A stretch of DNA of 64,000 nt from Thermococcus stetteri (GTDB lineage: Archaea; Methanobacteriota_B; Thermococci; Thermococcales; Thermococcaceae), in the NCBI RefSeq assembly GCF_017873335.1, contig NZ_JAGGKB010000001.1:1-64000 (forward strand). Reading direction: 5' to 3'. A program made the position numbers and the translations under genes. Below the pieces are notes generated by a model. It made no database searches. It was not told where the DNA came from and saw nothing but the letters and a program-made list of their open reading frames with translations. This document shows, in pieces, positions 31,046-36,490 of the stretch (position 1 is the first letter of the stretch; each line of letters opens with the position of its first letter).

Positions 31046-31122
<77 letters not shown>

Positions 31123-31164
31123 TCGGGAGAGAACTTGAGGGGTGCTCTTATAAAAGTTACGGTA

Positions 31165-31172
31165 GAGGGAAT
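31165..31172. repeat. Left target-site duplication GAGGGAAT
   Basis: An exact copy of this octamer stands at 34453-34460, each directly outside a 16-bp terminal repeat. IS6-family elements make 8-bp duplications. Confidence 0.8.
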
Positions 31173-31792
31173 CATACTGTTAGGATAACTTGGGTATCAC
31201 CCCCTGAATCCATTCAGCGATGTTTCCAGGCGGAGCATTAAACCGAGAATGAATCCTGACAAAATTATACCAGAAGGCAAACAGAAAAACAAACCTCTGA
31301 ACCTTCTTCCAACCACTACTCCTGAGATTATTCCAGAAACGCTTTGTCCACTCCTTCACAGTCCTAAACCAACGCTCAATACTATTCCTTGGCCCGAAAC
31401 TTGTACCCTAGCATTATCAACCAGAAAAACAGGCCGCCCTTCACAGGACTTTAAAACAACCAGAATGAAACCTCCAGCAACCCACCAGTTTCTGGTGGCT
31501 GTAATCCAGACTGCGAGGATTTTTGGCTTGTAAATCGCTTCCGCTAGTTTTTGAACTGTTTCGGCTCTTGTGTGGCTGATTTCCAGTATCTTGAAGACTT
31601 GCCGGTAACTGAGGCCCTGCAATAATTCTACTGCCCTGATTTTCTTCTCTGCTGGGATTTTGTTCCGGCGAAAAGGCTTTAAAGCTGAAACCACCCAGTA
31701 AATAATGGTTTCGGCCTTCACGTTCCCCTCCTTTTCCTGAAGTATTGCTGATAACTTAAATCTGACGCCCCACAGCTTATCCTAACAGTATC
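31173..31792 (-). mobile_element. Defective IS6-family (ISPfu-like) insertion sequence
   Basis: This 620-bp element has 16-bp ends at 31173-31188 and 31777-31792. A full element of this kind should be roughly 780 bp. The reduction comes from deletions inside the transposase gene, while both ends look functional, so it could move only with a transposase supplied in trans. The transposase is on the minus strand. It has no flanking duplication of its own. Confidence 0.82.
31180..31721 (-). pseudogene. Internally deleted IS6-family transposase
   Basis: From GTG 31721 the frame has the N-terminal helix-turn-helix of ISPfu-type transposases (FRRNKIPAEKKIRAVELL, GLSYRQVFKILEISH) and then jumps from YKPKILA to AVWITATRNWWVAG, skipping the segment with the first catalytic aspartate (AVDET type). 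It continues to SCEGRPVFLVDNA (second aspartate), after which a second deletion shifts the frame; the other frame then reads FGPRNSIERWFRTVKEW (catalytic glutamate) to FAFWYNFVRIHSRF and IQGVIPKLS, stopping inside the end repeat at 31180. Two of three catalytic acids remain but the enzyme cannot be active. Confidence 0.85.
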
Positions 31793-31793
31793 G

Positions 31794-31902
31794 TTTGCTT
31801 TCCGGTATAATTTTGTTAGGGTTCATTCTAGGTTTGGTCGGCCGCCTGGAAATATAACTGAATGGCTTCAGGAGGTGATACCCAAGTTATCCTAACAGCA
31901 TG
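31794..31902 (+). mobile_element. Truncated 3' end of a second IS6-family copy
   Basis: The plus strand reads FAFRYNFVRVHSRFGRPPGN and ITEWLQEVIPKLS, the transposase C terminus, and ends with TTATCCTAACAGCAT, a one-mismatch copy of the terminal repeat. It is in opposite orientation to the element at 31173 and begins right after that element's end, as if the latter had inserted in or recombined with it. Confidence 0.8.
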
Positions 31903-32011
31903 CCTTAACACTTTTTATAGTATAAATAACATTCTACGTCTTTAAACAGAACTCTAAAATTACTTTAGCTCTCTATTGAAGCGAGAGAGTCTAAATACAT
32001 ATCAGAAGCTA

Positions 32012-33451
32012 TTATTTGCTTTTTCTTAGGAAAACCAGCAAGAAAACTACTATAACCACAGCCACAAGACTACCCAAAATATCCATGATTAAAGAATTGT
32101 TGCTCTTTGGTCTCTCAGACAATACTGAAATCATTTCTGGGGTTATGTCGCTAAATTTGTCATTTTTAAAGAAATATATCTTGTTCTCATCAAATACAAT
32201 CCATCCCCCACAACAAAGCGCTACCCTGTATCCATGGTTTTTAAGGGCATCCGGAAGCTCAATGCTATCTCTTGAGGTAAGGTCAAATATATGGCTAGAG
32301 TTAAACAGAAAAACTGAATTTTCCCCAGAAGCTACAAGCATGCTTCCAGGCTCAACTTTTGGTGCTGAAAACCCTTTCGATTCCTTCATGTTGATCACTC
32401 TAAGGTAGTTGTTTCTGACTTTTAGGGAACTAACTTGAACAAGTGAAAAACCCCTGAGTTCAAATAGATTGAGCAAGATGTAGGTTCCCATGTTGATGGG
32501 AATTCTTGAAAGAATGTAACTCCTATTCGAGGTAGTTAGCGGATAAAGCATCGCATAGTCTTCAAATGCATGTATCTTAATGAAATCGGTGCCGTTAAAC
32601 AGCCATACAATGAATCTCAAATCGTTATGTGAATCTCTACCAAGAAGCATCGGCTTTCCAATCCACACCTTTGGGGGATATGGCCCTTCTCCCAACTCTC
32701 TTTTTTCTAGTCTCCGATTGTAGATTAAAACCAGTGAAGAGTTCCTGATAGTGAATACTCGAACCCATCCTCCATCTGAAGATACCACGAGAAAAGTTTT
32801 ACCGTCATCAACAGCTAATCCCACCGAATATATACCGGTTTTACTGAAGTTGTACTCTCCGAGCACTTTTCCATTCTCGTCAACTAAAGATTCCCCAATG
32901 AGCCAAGCGTTAAGCGCAGGGATCCAGACTTCCCGCCCAGTGACATTAAGGGGTACTAGGTTTTCATCTTTCAGGATGTAGTCTTTAAACTTGAAAGTGC
33001 ATTCTCCAGTGTTGGGATCATTATGGGGACCCGCTTCTATAAAAGTTAGAAGATACTCTCTGCCATTCCACTTAATCTCTAAGTCATTATCCGTGCATAA
33101 GCTACCTCCATTAAAAGTTTTAATAAGCTTAAGGACACCATTCTGGTATGTGTAAAGACTAACAGTTCCCCGCCTTTCTTTTTGGAGGAGCCAGTACTTG
33201 CCGTTCCAGTGTCTCACTAAATATGATGTAGTGAAATTAAGTGGCTCCACTTCAAAGGAGTGACCGTTGTAAGTTAGAGCATAAAGTTTATTCGATGTTG
33301 TGTTGAGAACCACGAATGCTACCTTGTCTCCAATAGAATAGGCGTTTATGATTTTCAAATTGTCAGTATAACCAGTCAATACTGGAATAGAGTCGATAAG
33401 CAGAAGGAAAAGAATAGAAACAAAGACAGTGCCTTTTACCACTCGGGACAT
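32012..33451 (-). CDS. Surface protein with signal peptide and C-terminal anchor (transposon cargo)
   Basis: The 479-residue protein starts MSRVVKGTVFVSILFLLLIDS (signal peptide) and ends with a membrane segment LVAVVIVVFLLVFL followed by RKSK, so the bulk should face outward. The outer part consists of many beta-strand repeats of the type SNKLYALTYNGHSF, NGKYWLLQKE, WNGREYLLTF and DDGKTFLVVSSDGG, which suggests a beta-propeller. I cannot name a family. It lacks the CGP-CTERM tail of the host's own surface proteins nearby, and codon use (many ATA, TTA, AAA, AAT) differs from the neighbours. Its start overlaps the end of the upstream cargo gene by 16 bp, so the two are coupled. Confidence 0.75.
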   Translation of the reverse strand: MSRVVKGTVFVSILFLLLIDSIPVLTGYTDNLKIINAYSIGDKVAFVVLNTTSNKLYALTYNGHSFEVEPLNFTTSYLVRHWNGKYWLLQKERRGTVSLYTYQNGVLKLIKTFNGGSLCTDNDLEIKWNGREYLLTFIEAGPHNDPNTGECTFKFKDYILKDENLVPLNVTGREVWIPALNAWLIGESLVDENGKVLGEYNFSKTGIYSVGLAVDDGKTFLVVSSDGGWVRVFTIRNSSLVLIYNRRLEKRELGEGPYPPKVWIGKPMLLGRDSHNDLRFIVWLFNGTDFIKIHAFEDYAMLYPLTTSNRSYILSRIPINMGTYILLNLFELRGFSLVQVSSLKVRNNYLRVINMKESKGFSAPKVEPGSMLVASGENSVFLFNSSHIFDLTSRDSIELPDALKNHGYRVALCCGGWIVFDENKIYFFKNDKFSDITPEMISVLSERPKSNNSLIMDILGSLVAVVIVVFLLVFLRKSK

Positions 33452-34320
33452 TGATTCCTCACCTCATCAACATTGTTTATATTAGCATTGTAGTAATATG
33501 CTCTCTGTGGCCAAATATTTCCAACCACCGAATTCTTTTGTGCTGTAACATAGTCACATGCTTTATTTATTAAGTCTGGATATGAGTTGATAGTCCCATC
33601 CACTTCCATTTCTATATATCCGTTAGGAATACTCCATACCCAATTCAAAATCTCAACTAGTGCATCAACGCCCTTTGTTAAATAGGGATACTCATTAGGG
33701 GCACCCTCCAAAGTTCCAGTGTAATATTCCTTCCATCTCTGATAATAATGTGGCTGAACAAAGACATAAGTGAAGTATTTTGACAAGAGTTTTATGTCAG
33801 TGTTATTTAGGTTTATTCTATCATGGACATAGGGTATCCAAATTAACTGTTGCCATTTATTTTTAATGTAGTTTGAGATTTCTTGAATGTCTTCCTCATA
33901 AACAACTCCATCACTAACTTGCCATGGATTTTCAAGATACCAATAGAAGCCTATTTGATAACCACTTGTGTTATCGTATACTCCGTCAACCCACCCTTTC
34001 CAATATTGTATTCCTCTAACTCCTCTGGTTTTACTCTCGTCAATGAGAACTGGAACCACAACAAGATAATCGATTCCTTTCAGTATCGAATCTATCCATC
34101 TTCCAAGAGATGCTCCATCTTGGTATCCATCGTTGTAGGAATATCCACTAAACGGAATATTCCCATATAATAAGTTTCCATTTTCATCTTTTGCAGCAGA
34201 ATGCAGAGCTATTGCATAGGTAAATCCTCTGTCTTTCAGCTGAGATGGTGTTCCTGCGGAGGAAAATGTTTCATAATTCCCATCTTGAGCTTTAAAGTAC
34301 CACAATCCATATGTGGCCAC
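33436..34320 (-). CDS. DUF4855-like protein, putative TIM-barrel hydrolase (transposon cargo)
   Basis: The 294-residue protein has motifs in the order of DUF4855: GYQIGFYWYLENPW, WIPYVHDRINLN, YVFVQPHYYQRW and NGYIEMEVDG. The pattern of strand-end acids (E in YWYLEN and E/D in IEMEVDG) resembles glycoside-hydrolase TIM barrels, but no activity is established for the family as far as I know. There is no signal peptide in this reading (start GTG 34320 after GAGGTGAT), so either it acts in the cytoplasm or the true start is lost. The promoter (TTTTTAAAG near 34352-34360) sits directly beside the MITE end. It is AT-rich, unlike its chromosomal neighbours. Confidence 0.65.
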   Translation of the reverse strand: MATYGLWYFKAQDGNYETFSSAGTPSQLKDRGFTYAIALHSAAKDENGNLLYGNIPFSGYSYNDGYQDGASLGRWIDSILKGIDYLVVVPVLIDESKTRGVRGIQYWKGWVDGVYDNTSGYQIGFYWYLENPWQVSDGVVYEEDIQEISNYIKNKWQQLIWIPYVHDRINLNNTDIKLLSKYFTYVFVQPHYYQRWKEYYTGTLEGAPNEYPYLTKGVDALVEILNWVWSIPNGYIEMEVDGTINSYPDLINKACDYVTAQKNSVVGNIWPQRAYYYNANINNVDEVRNQCPEW

Positions 34321-34363
34321 AATATCACCTCAATAAGTAGTTATATGATAGTACTTTAAAAAT

Positions 34364-34452
34364 GATACTGTTAGGATAAGCAGTGGGACATCAGGTTTAA
34401 GTTTCTGACACTACTTCAGAAAAAGAAGGACCGTAGTTATCCTAACAGTATC
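34364..34452. mobile_element. MITE-like 89-bp deletion derivative of the IS6-family element
   Basis: The ends are GATACTGTTAGGATAA and its exact inverse. The first ~66 bp follow the 5' end of the element at 31173 (including TTTAAGTT and TACTTCAG at equal spacing) with scattered changes, then it jumps to the 3' terminal ~20 bp (AGTTATCCTAACAGTATC). It contains no coding sequence. Confidence 0.85.
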
Positions 34453-34460
34453 GAGGGAAT
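34453..34460. repeat. Right target-site duplication GAGGGAAT
   Basis: This is identical to 31165-31172 and immediately follows the right terminal repeat. Confidence 0.8.
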
Positions 34461-34477: not shown

Positions 34478-36490
34478 TCACTCCCTCCTCCTGAGGAGGA
34501 GCGGCACGACGGCAAGGCCAACGAGGGCCGCTGGCCCACAGGTGCTCTTACCCTCAGAGGACGTCTGCTTGGCTGTGGTAGTCTTAGCGGCCTTTGAAGT
34601 GCTGGCGACAGTGATCTCCTTGGTAACAGTTCCCTTGTTACCGTAGAAGTCCTCCGCGACTATCTCTATCTTGTACTTACCCTCCTTAAGGCCAGGAAGC
34701 TGGACGATGTAGAAGGTGTCTCCCGGCTTCCCGCTTGAGGGTTCGCCCGGGAACTTGTCAACCTTACCGTACTTGACAGGGTTTCCGTTCTCATCGTATA
34801 TGACGGCGTAGAGGTCCCTTATGCCGAGGTTGTCCTGGGCCGTGAAGTAGGCCATAAAGTTAGCGTTCGGCTTCGGGTGGCTGGGCTGGAGGTAGGCTAT
34901 CTGAACCACGGGCTTCTCGGTATCAGCGGCAGTGTCAATGACAAGCTGGGAAACACCCTGCGGAATCGTTACGTTCAGCATTATGTAGTACTGGTCGGCG
35001 ATCTGCCTCTCGCCGATAATGGTATAGGTTATGTTTGTGACCTTTGGATCGATCTTCGCATCCTTGGGTATCGGGAGAACTATCGGGCCGCTAACGCTTT
35101 CATCGAGCTCGTTAATGAACTTGACCGCAGTCCCTTCCTTCGAGATGTGCCTGAAGGCCATAAACCTCTGTGGAACCGGAACGCTCATGAAGTCGCTCTG
35201 AACCTTGTCGTCCTTGATCTCAACGTTTACATAGGGCATCTCAACTGTTCCGTCCTCTTTGATAACAACGAGGTTGCTTCCGTACCAGGTCGGGCTGTAC
35301 TCTGGGTGTGTCGGTGGGTTGCTCTCCTTGTCCGGAGCGCCGGTTGAGGTCAGGGTAAGGAAGTAGTGCTTGTTGCCGTCCTTGTCGATATAGAGCCAGT
35401 ACATGTCGTGGTGGATGTGCCCGCTCATGGTAAGCGGCACGTTGTACTTGACTATATCTTCAAGGAAGCGCTTGGAGATCTCCTCCTGTGCTGACCAGCT
35501 CCTGCGGAGGTGCTTCTTAATCTGATCCCAGTCAGCATTCGGGTCAAGGCCCTTGAGAATACCGCCGAGGTAGTTCCAGCCTGGGTCAAAGAAGTACGGG
35601 TGGTGGTAGAGGATTATCGGTGTGTAGCCCTTGTGCTCATCGAGAACCTTCTCCATCCACTCGATCTGATCCATTGTCGGGTATCCCTGATCACCACCGG
35701 TATCGAGCCCTATTATGATGAACTTGCCGATGGTCACATAGAAGTACTTCGGCCCGAGGAGCTGGGTGTAAACGGTTGGTGGATCGTCGTGGTTGCCCTT
35801 GATCCCAACAACGGGAAGGTCAGCAGCGGAGGTGTCCTTGGTTATGTCGAACATTATCTTGTAACCGACCATGTCACCGCTGGTATCAACTTCATCTCCC
35901 GTGTTTATCATGAGCGTGGCTCCCTTCATTCCCCAGTAGAGGTAGGCGCTGTAAGTGGCGACGACGCTGTGGAGCGGGATTGGGTTCGGGCACATCTTTT
36001 CAAGCTTGTAGATGTTGTTCTGGAAGTAGTCGCCGCAGACGTAGCCGATCTTTGCACCTGTAGTGACGTGGGTGTCGCTCGTCCAGGCAAGCCTAAGTTC
36101 CTTCGGCCATTCTTTGAACACCTTCAGGCCGTTGGGGAGGACGAGGGTGCCCTTGTTGGTCTTTATGAGCAGGAAGTAAGTGTCTGGGACTATATCGTCC
36201 GGAGTCTTGACTTTCACAGTAGTTATTCCATCTTCTCCCGGTGACGTTCCCTGGATCTCCAGCTGGTACGGGCCATGAAGCACTGAAACAGCTTCAATTG
36301 AGCTTATTGTAACTCCGTCCTTCACATAAAGCTCAAAGCTCTCTCCTGGAAGTGCAAATGCCGGAACAACTGGTGCCGGTTGGTATAGGTAGTCGCTGTA
36401 GGTGTAGGAGTACTCCTCTGCCGAGACATAGCCTGCAGCGGCCAAAACAGCAGTCAGGGCAAGCAGCATGGAGAGGACTTTCCTCAGCAT
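34478..36490 (-). CDS. Secreted metallophosphoesterase with CGP-CTERM anchor
   Basis: The 670-residue protein has a signal peptide (LSMLLALTAVLAAAGYVSA), an N-terminal beta domain, then calcineurin-like motifs AWTSDTHVT, NTGDEVD, KGNHDDPP, LYHHPYFF and SGHIHHD, a C-terminal beta-sandwich region, a Thr/Ser stalk, and the tripartite CGP-CTERM tail TCGPAALVGLAVVPLLLRRR. It should be a phosphatase or nuclease tethered outside the cell after processing and lipid attachment at the CGP cysteine. It lies at the end of a minus-strand block with an ABC importer and may release the importer's substrate. The IS unit inserted just past its stop. Confidence 0.92.
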   Translation of the reverse strand: MLRKVLSMLLALTAVLAAAGYVSAEEYSYTYSDYLYQPAPVVPAFALPGESFELYVKDGVTISSIEAVSVLHGPYQLEIQGTSPGEDGITTVKVKTPDDIVPDTYFLLIKTNKGTLVLPNGLKVFKEWPKELRLAWTSDTHVTTGAKIGYVCGDYFQNNIYKLEKMCPNPIPLHSVVATYSAYLYWGMKGATLMINTGDEVDTSGDMVGYKIMFDITKDTSAADLPVVGIKGNHDDPPTVYTQLLGPKYFYVTIGKFIIIGLDTGGDQGYPTMDQIEWMEKVLDEHKGYTPIILYHHPYFFDPGWNYLGGILKGLDPNADWDQIKKHLRRSWSAQEEISKRFLEDIVKYNVPLTMSGHIHHDMYWLYIDKDGNKHYFLTLTSTGAPDKESNPPTHPEYSPTWYGSNLVVIKEDGTVEMPYVNVEIKDDKVQSDFMSVPVPQRFMAFRHISKEGTAVKFINELDESVSGPIVLPIPKDAKIDPKVTNITYTIIGERQIADQYYIMLNVTIPQGVSQLVIDTAADTEKPVVQIAYLQPSHPKPNANFMAYFTAQDNLGIRDLYAVIYDENGNPVKYGKVDKFPGEPSSGKPGDTFYIVQLPGLKEGKYKIEIVAEDFYGNKGTVTKEITVASTSKAAKTTTAKQTSSEGKSTCGPAALVGLAVVPLLLRRRE

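Follow-up and report, generated by a model that had tools for sequence, protein, structure and literature searches.

Layout of the block and its IS6 pieces

The DNA considered here is a 64-kb window of the genome of the archaeon Thermococcus stetteri (contig NZ_JAGGKB010000001.1, positions 1 to 64,000; all coordinates below are positions in this window unless a contig is named). Just upstream of a tRNA-Arg gene it holds a 3,280-bp block (31173-34452) that has ends of the insertion sequence (IS) family IS6 and the octamer GAGGGAAT on both sides. Between the IS-derived pieces lies a cargo of 2,461 bp with two overlapping genes; it is AT-rich, as an earlier note on this DNA had said, with a GC content of 38.2% against 52% for the window. 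In the labels used below, G000 is the window's own genome, and other G and L numbers denote genomes and loci, respectively. The features are, from left to right:

31046..31122, minus strand: tRNA-Arg (anticodon TCT); the unit is inserted upstream of it, with the tRNA 5' end 51 bp from the unit
31149..31154, minus strand: TTTATA, the TATA element in the promoter of tRNA-Arg; counted outward from the left duplication, it begins at +10
31165..31172, no strand: left 8-bp target duplication GAGGGAAT, abutting IS end 31173; octamer-like GCGGGAAT at the empty site of G011
31173..31792, minus strand: IS-A, an IS6 element with internal deletions that leave 620 of 781 bp; the 5' end of its transposase lies to the right and its 3' end points outward to the left, as seen by BLASTN and alignment to the intact copy L037
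31793..31902, plus strand: IS-B, corresponding to the last 110 bp of another IS6 copy, with 86% identity to the intact one; the outer end, 31902, is turned toward the cargo
32012..33451, minus strand: cargo gene 2, encoding 479 amino acids; by eye there appear to be a signal at the N-terminus and a membrane segment at the C-terminus, and no family in Pfam exceeds its cut-off
33436..34320, minus strand: cargo gene 1, encoding 294 amino acids that resemble DUF4855 (E 6e-5, short of the gathering score in Pfam); a GTG start codon follows GAGGTGAT
34355..34360, minus strand: TTTAAA, a TATA-like motif belonging to cargo gene 1; it lies 3 bp beyond the inner end of the 89-bp element, which is not the canonical spacing for an insertion
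34364..34452, plus strand: right boundary of 89 bp, in which positions 1-66 of the IS run directly into ~23 bp from its 3' end; the 16-bp inverted ends are perfect
34453..34460, no strand: right 8-bp target duplication GAGGGAAT, abutting IS end 34452
34478..36490, minus strand: flanking metallophosphoesterase gene, which adjoins tRNA-Arg in close relatives

The exact 8-bp duplication that the earlier note had placed at the outermost ends is present at both coordinates. Of the terminal repeats next to it, which had been described as matching 16-mers, this much stands: the octamers do abut them, but they agree at 15 of 16 positions and differ in the outermost base (left C, right G). When the left-facing ends (31173 and 34364) are paired with the right-facing ones (31792, 31902 and 34452), the adjoining octamers agree at 8/8 bases in only one of the six pairings, 31173/34452, and at 1-3 bases in the remaining five, so that the note was also correct in denying the inner elements duplications of their own. 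For one pair, an 8/8 match has a chance of ~1.5e-5 (4^-8, our own arithmetic).

The left boundary, which the earlier note had taken for one defective IS, is made of two pieces. IS-A is indeed defective: its alignment to the intact copy shows that two main internal stretches are gone, and the 121-amino-acid frame that remains open has no Pfam match. IS-B, the second piece, sits between IS-A and the cargo in the opposite orientation to IS-A; relative to the 89-bp right piece, IS-B is in direct and IS-A in inverted orientation. Among the matches listed in 61 genomes of the genus, no other place matches the junction within the 89-bp piece (14 of 36 candidates were scored in G016), and the possibility that this piece is a multi-copy miniature element was rejected because no second match spanning the junction was listed.

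In the window's own genome, the 15-bp IS-end pattern (up to two mismatches) occurs six times in forward and nine times in reverse orientation, as against zero and two occurrences of a reversed-pattern control. An intact 781-bp IS6 copy (L037) lies outside the block at about G000:C2:274677-275455, with its own 8-bp duplication GATCAAAG and a transposase gene at G000:C2:274686-275384. The transposase scores 183.4 bits against the NCBIfam IS6 model NF033587 (cut-off 125) and 49.6 bits against PF13610, DDE_Tnp_IS240 (cut-off 27); against Transposase_mut, of the Mutator superfamily, it reaches 12.2 bits, below the cut-off of 21. The intact copy has the length of ~800 bp, the short inverted repeats and the 8-bp target duplication of an IS6 element; duplications in 29 IS6 copies measure 7-10 bp, 8 being the most frequent length. 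Among the matches listed in the 61 genomes, it is the only one with a full-length, uninterrupted transposase match, and a transposase match of any kind occurs in 10 of the 61; the IS6 relatives found on plasmids are all below 60% identity. Since an intact IS6 transposase is encoded elsewhere in the genome, the block may have been served in trans, which is what became of the earlier suggestion that the transposase came from another place. The earlier note had the block move between two elements that were already dead, but the internal deletions of the end pieces, those in IS-A included, could postdate the insertion.

Empty sites in relatives and the origin of the cargo

Of the 60 other genomes of the genus, 29 relatives were examined, and in none of them does an IS end come closer than 300 bp to the tRNA-Arg anchor. 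The tail of the downstream gene lies 59-75 bp from this anchor in 23 of the 29 (the pattern was not found in the other six), and in close relatives the tRNA-Arg promoter adjoins the end of the next gene. In G011, the closest relative (flanking protein 92% identical), the site reads GTTACGGTAGGCGGGAATAAAAGAAGGGAA. The earlier note had looked for an empty site with one GAGGGAAT; a single octamer-like copy is what G011 has, albeit as GCGGGAAT, one base off, and G021 is more diverged at this spot (GAAGAGGAAATA). As far as sequence comparison can tell, these empty sites support a single insertion of the whole IS6-bounded, two-gene block. Could the two octamers instead match by coincidence, the cargo being ancestral at this site and lost in relatives? 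The imperfect octamer of G011 and the divergence of G021 would sit well with such a history, which would, however, have to explain why an 8/8 match is found only for the outermost pair of ends, why none of the 29 relatives carries an IS end there and why relatives of the cargo adjoin an L15e gene elsewhere. We hold it to be highly improbable.

These cargo relatives, with 76-79% DNA identity, adjoin the L15e gene (assigned by Pfam) in two genomes, G016 and G012, the latter with gene 1 split; in G022 the neighbours of L15e are more distant relatives of the cargo, and the L15e locus of the window's own genome has a different gene there. No IS end with up to two mismatches was found at the cargo-relative loci (L043-L047 and L161-L163), and matches with three mismatches number two at the G016 locus, one of them inside cargo gene 1, and one at G022. 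Because its relatives stand beside L15e without IS ends, the cargo looks captured, and the IS-free relatives are not read as absence of transposition. The earlier note had counted cargo without IS ends in relatives as a finding that would speak against transposition; it applies in part, to G012, G016 and G022, and is taken here in the sense just given. The cargo is also a mosaic, three 100-bp windows of gene 2 (32164-32463) being 99-100% identical to G016 and the remaining windows 58-90%, which makes a recent exchange with a G016-like lineage likely.

NCBIfam (E 0.1) has no match for either cargo protein or for two of their relatives, PADLOC (E 0.01) has none for four cargo-type proteins, and a sequence search of the PDB returned a single insignificant match (E 0.58). 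An AlphaFold model of the DUF4855-like protein, built from a two-row alignment, has a mean pLDDT (predicted local distance difference test) of 36.7, and no relative of cargo gene 1 was found among viral contigs. A second DUF4855 operon lies on contig C6 of the same genome, with an IS 5' end just upstream of the operon promoter. Its stretch L041 4791-8116 (G000:C6) is 98.2% identical over 3,327 bp, including the DUF4855 operon and the IS6 5' end, to L324 8262-11556 of G096, a member of another genus; to judge from this identity, it is apparently a recent inter-genus transfer that took the IS end along. In G042, an IS6 end stands at canonical promoter spacing upstream of another DUF4855 gene (L214 4899, G042:C50), with IS982 fragments nearby. 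The C6 and G042 cases therefore indicate that the DUF4855 operon family repeatedly travels, or sits, with IS6 elements.

Distance between IS6 insertions and archaeal promoters

The flank outward of 31173 reads attccctc TACCGTAACTTTTATAAGAG, and the TTTATA at +10 is that of the tRNA-Arg promoter. Is this position peculiar to the block or a property of the IS6 clade to which its ends belong? Insertions were scored for TTTAWA, which we take to be the archaeal TATA motif, with up to one mismatch and on either side, at +10 to +13 after the duplication. Set 1 comprises 29 full-length copies with duplications, 27 from G092 (30 loci among the matches listed, three of which lacked an intact 5' end and were dropped before counting), one from G093 and one from the window's own genome; locus L293 of G092 was skipped in this set and counted in set 2. 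The latter came from a scan of 49 other loci, which yielded 13 duplication-bearing elements, mostly 56-88-bp miniatures of G016. Of these 42 insertions, 32 have a TATA motif whose start is 10-13 bp past the duplication, namely 20 of 29 in set 1 and 12 of 13 in set 2.

Over the somewhat wider range of +8 to +14, the 20/29 of set 1 compare with shifted controls (n=29) that average 5.5 and reach 10 at most; for the exact motif, 13/29 compare with an average of 0.86 and at most 3. Counted per flank over both sets, 38 of 83 match at +10 to +13, whereas 71 other positions average 6.35 matches and none exceeds 13. An A-rich run resembling the transcription factor B (TFB) recognition element (BRE) is in register with the motif, with A at +5, +6 and +7 in 23, 25 and 28 of the 32, respectively, although it was no criterion in selecting the sites; within the duplication no clear consensus is seen. 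As a control, 20 copies of an IS982 element with 6-9-bp duplications, drawn from at least 41 in the same genome G092, gave no match (0/20 versus 19/27 for IS6; Fisher p 3e-7), even though the AT content of the flanks is alike (0.62 and 0.63); the assignment to IS982 is by a partial protein that scores 59.7 bits against NF033520, for which the cut-off is 130. Both a fixed promoter distance and position-specific enrichment are therefore found in this clade, for an archaeal BRE/TATA promoter. A constant orientation of one IS end toward the promoter is not: in set 1 the motif lies only beyond the 3' end in nine insertions and only beyond the 5' end in six, and in six insertions of the two sets it lies on both sides. 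Statistically, then, IS6 elements of this clade are shown to insert upstream of an existing promoter at a set distance: from the end of the duplication it is ~4 bp to the BRE and 10-13 bp to the TATA.

It might be asked whether promoters are chosen at all, or whether insertions within genes are simply lost and those upstream of promoters survive. That many matches lie in upstream regions, some of them at tRNA genes, would be expected under such selection, but a peak only 4 bp wide (+10 to +13) with a BRE-like stretch in register is not readily explained by it, nor is the 0/20 of IS982 in the same genome, and selection by itself is very improbable. The spacing suggests that targets are found by promoter recognition. 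The transposase, either directly or via bound TATA-binding protein (TBP) and TFB, would likely read the promoter and cut at its upstream edge. We lean, by a small degree, towards a general form of this proposal, in which the IS6 clade of the Thermococcales is a promoter-targeting transposon whose transposase engages TBP/TFB-bound promoters or BRE/TATA DNA, places its duplication ~4 bp upstream of the BRE and takes operons, the DUF4855 pair among them, to new promoters and from genus to genus; it would be an archaeal counterpart of Ty3 at tRNA genes.

Several observations temper this proposal. The near-constant distance of the TATA motif was first noticed in the outward IS flanks and the range +10 to +13 fixed afterwards; because it was chosen after viewing set 1, only set 2 and the IS982 control are tests. 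Among IS ends without a detected duplication, 29 of 69 match at +8 to +14 (our own count), and among IS ends of the window's own genome 7 of 16 match at +10 to +13. The intact copy there (I37) has no match on either side, only a CATATA at about the right place, and I36, C5 and C6:97405 of the same genome also depart from the spacing; we assume that degenerate or rearranged ends dilute the signal. L266 and L268, both among the 42 sites, have one flank in common at 98%, and for two further pairs the figure is 65-68%. As to the block itself, its right outer end 34452 has no TATA match, one matching side being sufficient under the rule.

With regard to the remaining ends of the block, the IS-B end 31902 has a TATA-like match at +10, and also at +1 and +3, in AT-rich sequence, and the spacing is not kept at the inner ends, 31792 and 34364, as expected for rearranged junctions. 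A reading of the 34364 junction as a primary insertion before the cargo promoter was dropped, since a duplication is missing there and the spacing is wrong. If it holds, the spacing rule accounts for the landing site of the block and supports a real IS6 integration of the cargo.

Other loci bear on the habits of the clade. G016 (L231, L232 and L295-L314) has 109 IS6-end matches with up to one mismatch (53+56) and 56-88-bp miniatures flanked by duplications, and among the matches listed only fragments of a transposase were found in it; IS6 miniatures of 227 and 336 bp are mentioned in the available text of PMC7986276. On contig C4 of the window's own genome (L159 2866-2886), 21 bp of an IS 3' end, 100% identical to the intact copy, lie 53 bp upstream of tRNA-Val, compared with 51 bp between the block and tRNA-Arg. 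At L279 (G092:C4), an IS6 copy stands immediately before an IS982 element, and the promoter of the latter seems to have been its target.

History of the block and related systems

Taken together, the block is probably the relic of an IS6-family pseudo-compound transposon that integrated just upstream of the tRNA-Arg promoter, at a non-random target. At the donor site, two IS6 copies would have flanked the two-gene operon, and the IS6 transposase would have integrated this block by its outward-facing IS6 ends upstream of the tRNA-Arg promoter, duplicating GAGGGAAT by a reaction route that we infer. In functional IS6 compound transposons the copies are always directly repeated, because resolution needs recombination between them (both as given in the available text of PMC7986276). 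Given this need, the inverted orientation of IS-A and the direct orientation of IS-B relative to the right piece favour a nested history: the original left partner was probably IS-B, direct with the 89-bp remnant; IS-A would later have inserted into IS-B, and recombination between two like-oriented short terminal repeats at the left edge would have removed the rest of IS-B. Such nesting would account for the IS-A/IS-B junction.

The main rival leads to the same end state as movement of the block. A single IS6 element, the parent of the 89-bp piece, would have landed at the tRNA-Arg promoter and duplicated the octamer, and a circular translocatable unit (IS plus cargo) would then have joined it at its 5' terminus, leaving the octamers in place; the joining would have been either a targeted, conservative IS6 insertion or a recombination between short repeats. 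Joining of a translocatable unit is not known to create a new duplication, and the inner junction at 34364 has neither a duplication nor canonical promoter spacing. The movement of DNA by IS26 as translocatable units is discussed in PMC7986276, as far as its available text goes. This sequence of events requires, however, a junction exactly at the IS terminus, and the directly oriented left copy is present only as the IS-B fragment, and we regard it as possible yet rather unlikely.

Movement of the block as a pseudo-compound transposon, preferred here, has its own difficulties. Both outer ends are of the 3' type, IS-A being inverted to the right piece, and without the nested history the standard IS6 route fails to resolve; that history, for its part, is not directly visible. 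IS-B is about equally close to both IS subgroups and therefore gives the nested model no independent support. The same unit with different octamers, which the earlier note had suggested seeking in other genomes, was not found, nor was any other second copy of the whole unit, so that block movement is argued from one site. Of the view that the block moved between two elements, the single insertion is supported (0/29 relatives with an IS end there), and the inverted orientation of IS-A speaks against a simple composite.

How does the unit compare with known systems? With the archaeal IS6 clade that includes Thermococcales members (PMC7986276, available text) it shares an IS6 transposase by NCBIfam, a length of ~781 bp, mostly 8-bp duplications and 15-16-bp ends; it differs in carrying two passenger genes between end remnants, and fixed promoter spacing is absent from the description of the clade there. 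Like the IS6 pseudo-compound transposons Tn610, Tn4003 and Tn2680 named in the same text, it has passenger DNA between IS6 copies, here remnants, but these copies have decayed and seem to be nested, the left IS that survives is in inverted orientation and the octamers flank the whole block. IS-flanked gene transfer in the Thermococcales is already known: a 16-kb region of Pyrococcus furiosus with two IS elements was proposed to result from recent transposon-mediated transfer between P. furiosus and Thermococcus litoralis (DiRuggiero et al. 2000, as cited in the available text of PMC6640164). Compared by description, that region is likewise an IS-flanked gene block and differs in bearing trehalose/maltose transporter genes, and with this precedent the earlier statement that such a unit is unusual in an archaeon was too strong.

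Promoter targeting as such is also known, since TnGBS, ISLre2 and some ISKra4-group elements practise it. According to the available text of PMC3942029, TnGBS and related IS insert 15-17 bp upstream of the -35 element of sigma-A promoters, ISLre2 and some ISKra4-group elements also target promoters, and the archaeal ISH6 prefers an AT-rich target motif. The likeness to the first three lies in targets upstream of promoters; their transposases are of the Mutator superfamily (same source), in contrast to the IS6 transposase, the archaeal BRE/TATA and the use of either IS end toward the promoter found here. In the literature searched, which took in few subscription papers, no report was found of promoter or TATA targeting at a fixed spacing for IS6 or for an archaeal BRE/TATA. 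What is new is therefore an IS6 clade at a fixed distance from the archaeal BRE/TATA. In yeast, integration of Ty3 and Ty1 is tied to the promoter machinery of tRNA genes; the link to such machinery at tRNA genes is alike, but Ty3 and Ty1 are retroelements that use Pol III factors, and in the present case a contact with factors would be deduced from spacing.

Should the spacing rule hold, we have here an ordinary insertion sequence of archaea that is able to read the basal promoter. It would then offer a simple archaeal system for contacts between a transposase and transcription factors, and its insertion sites could mark promoters. It would also provide a reason why IS6 elements spare genes and yet place cargo beside promoters, such as those of tRNA genes.

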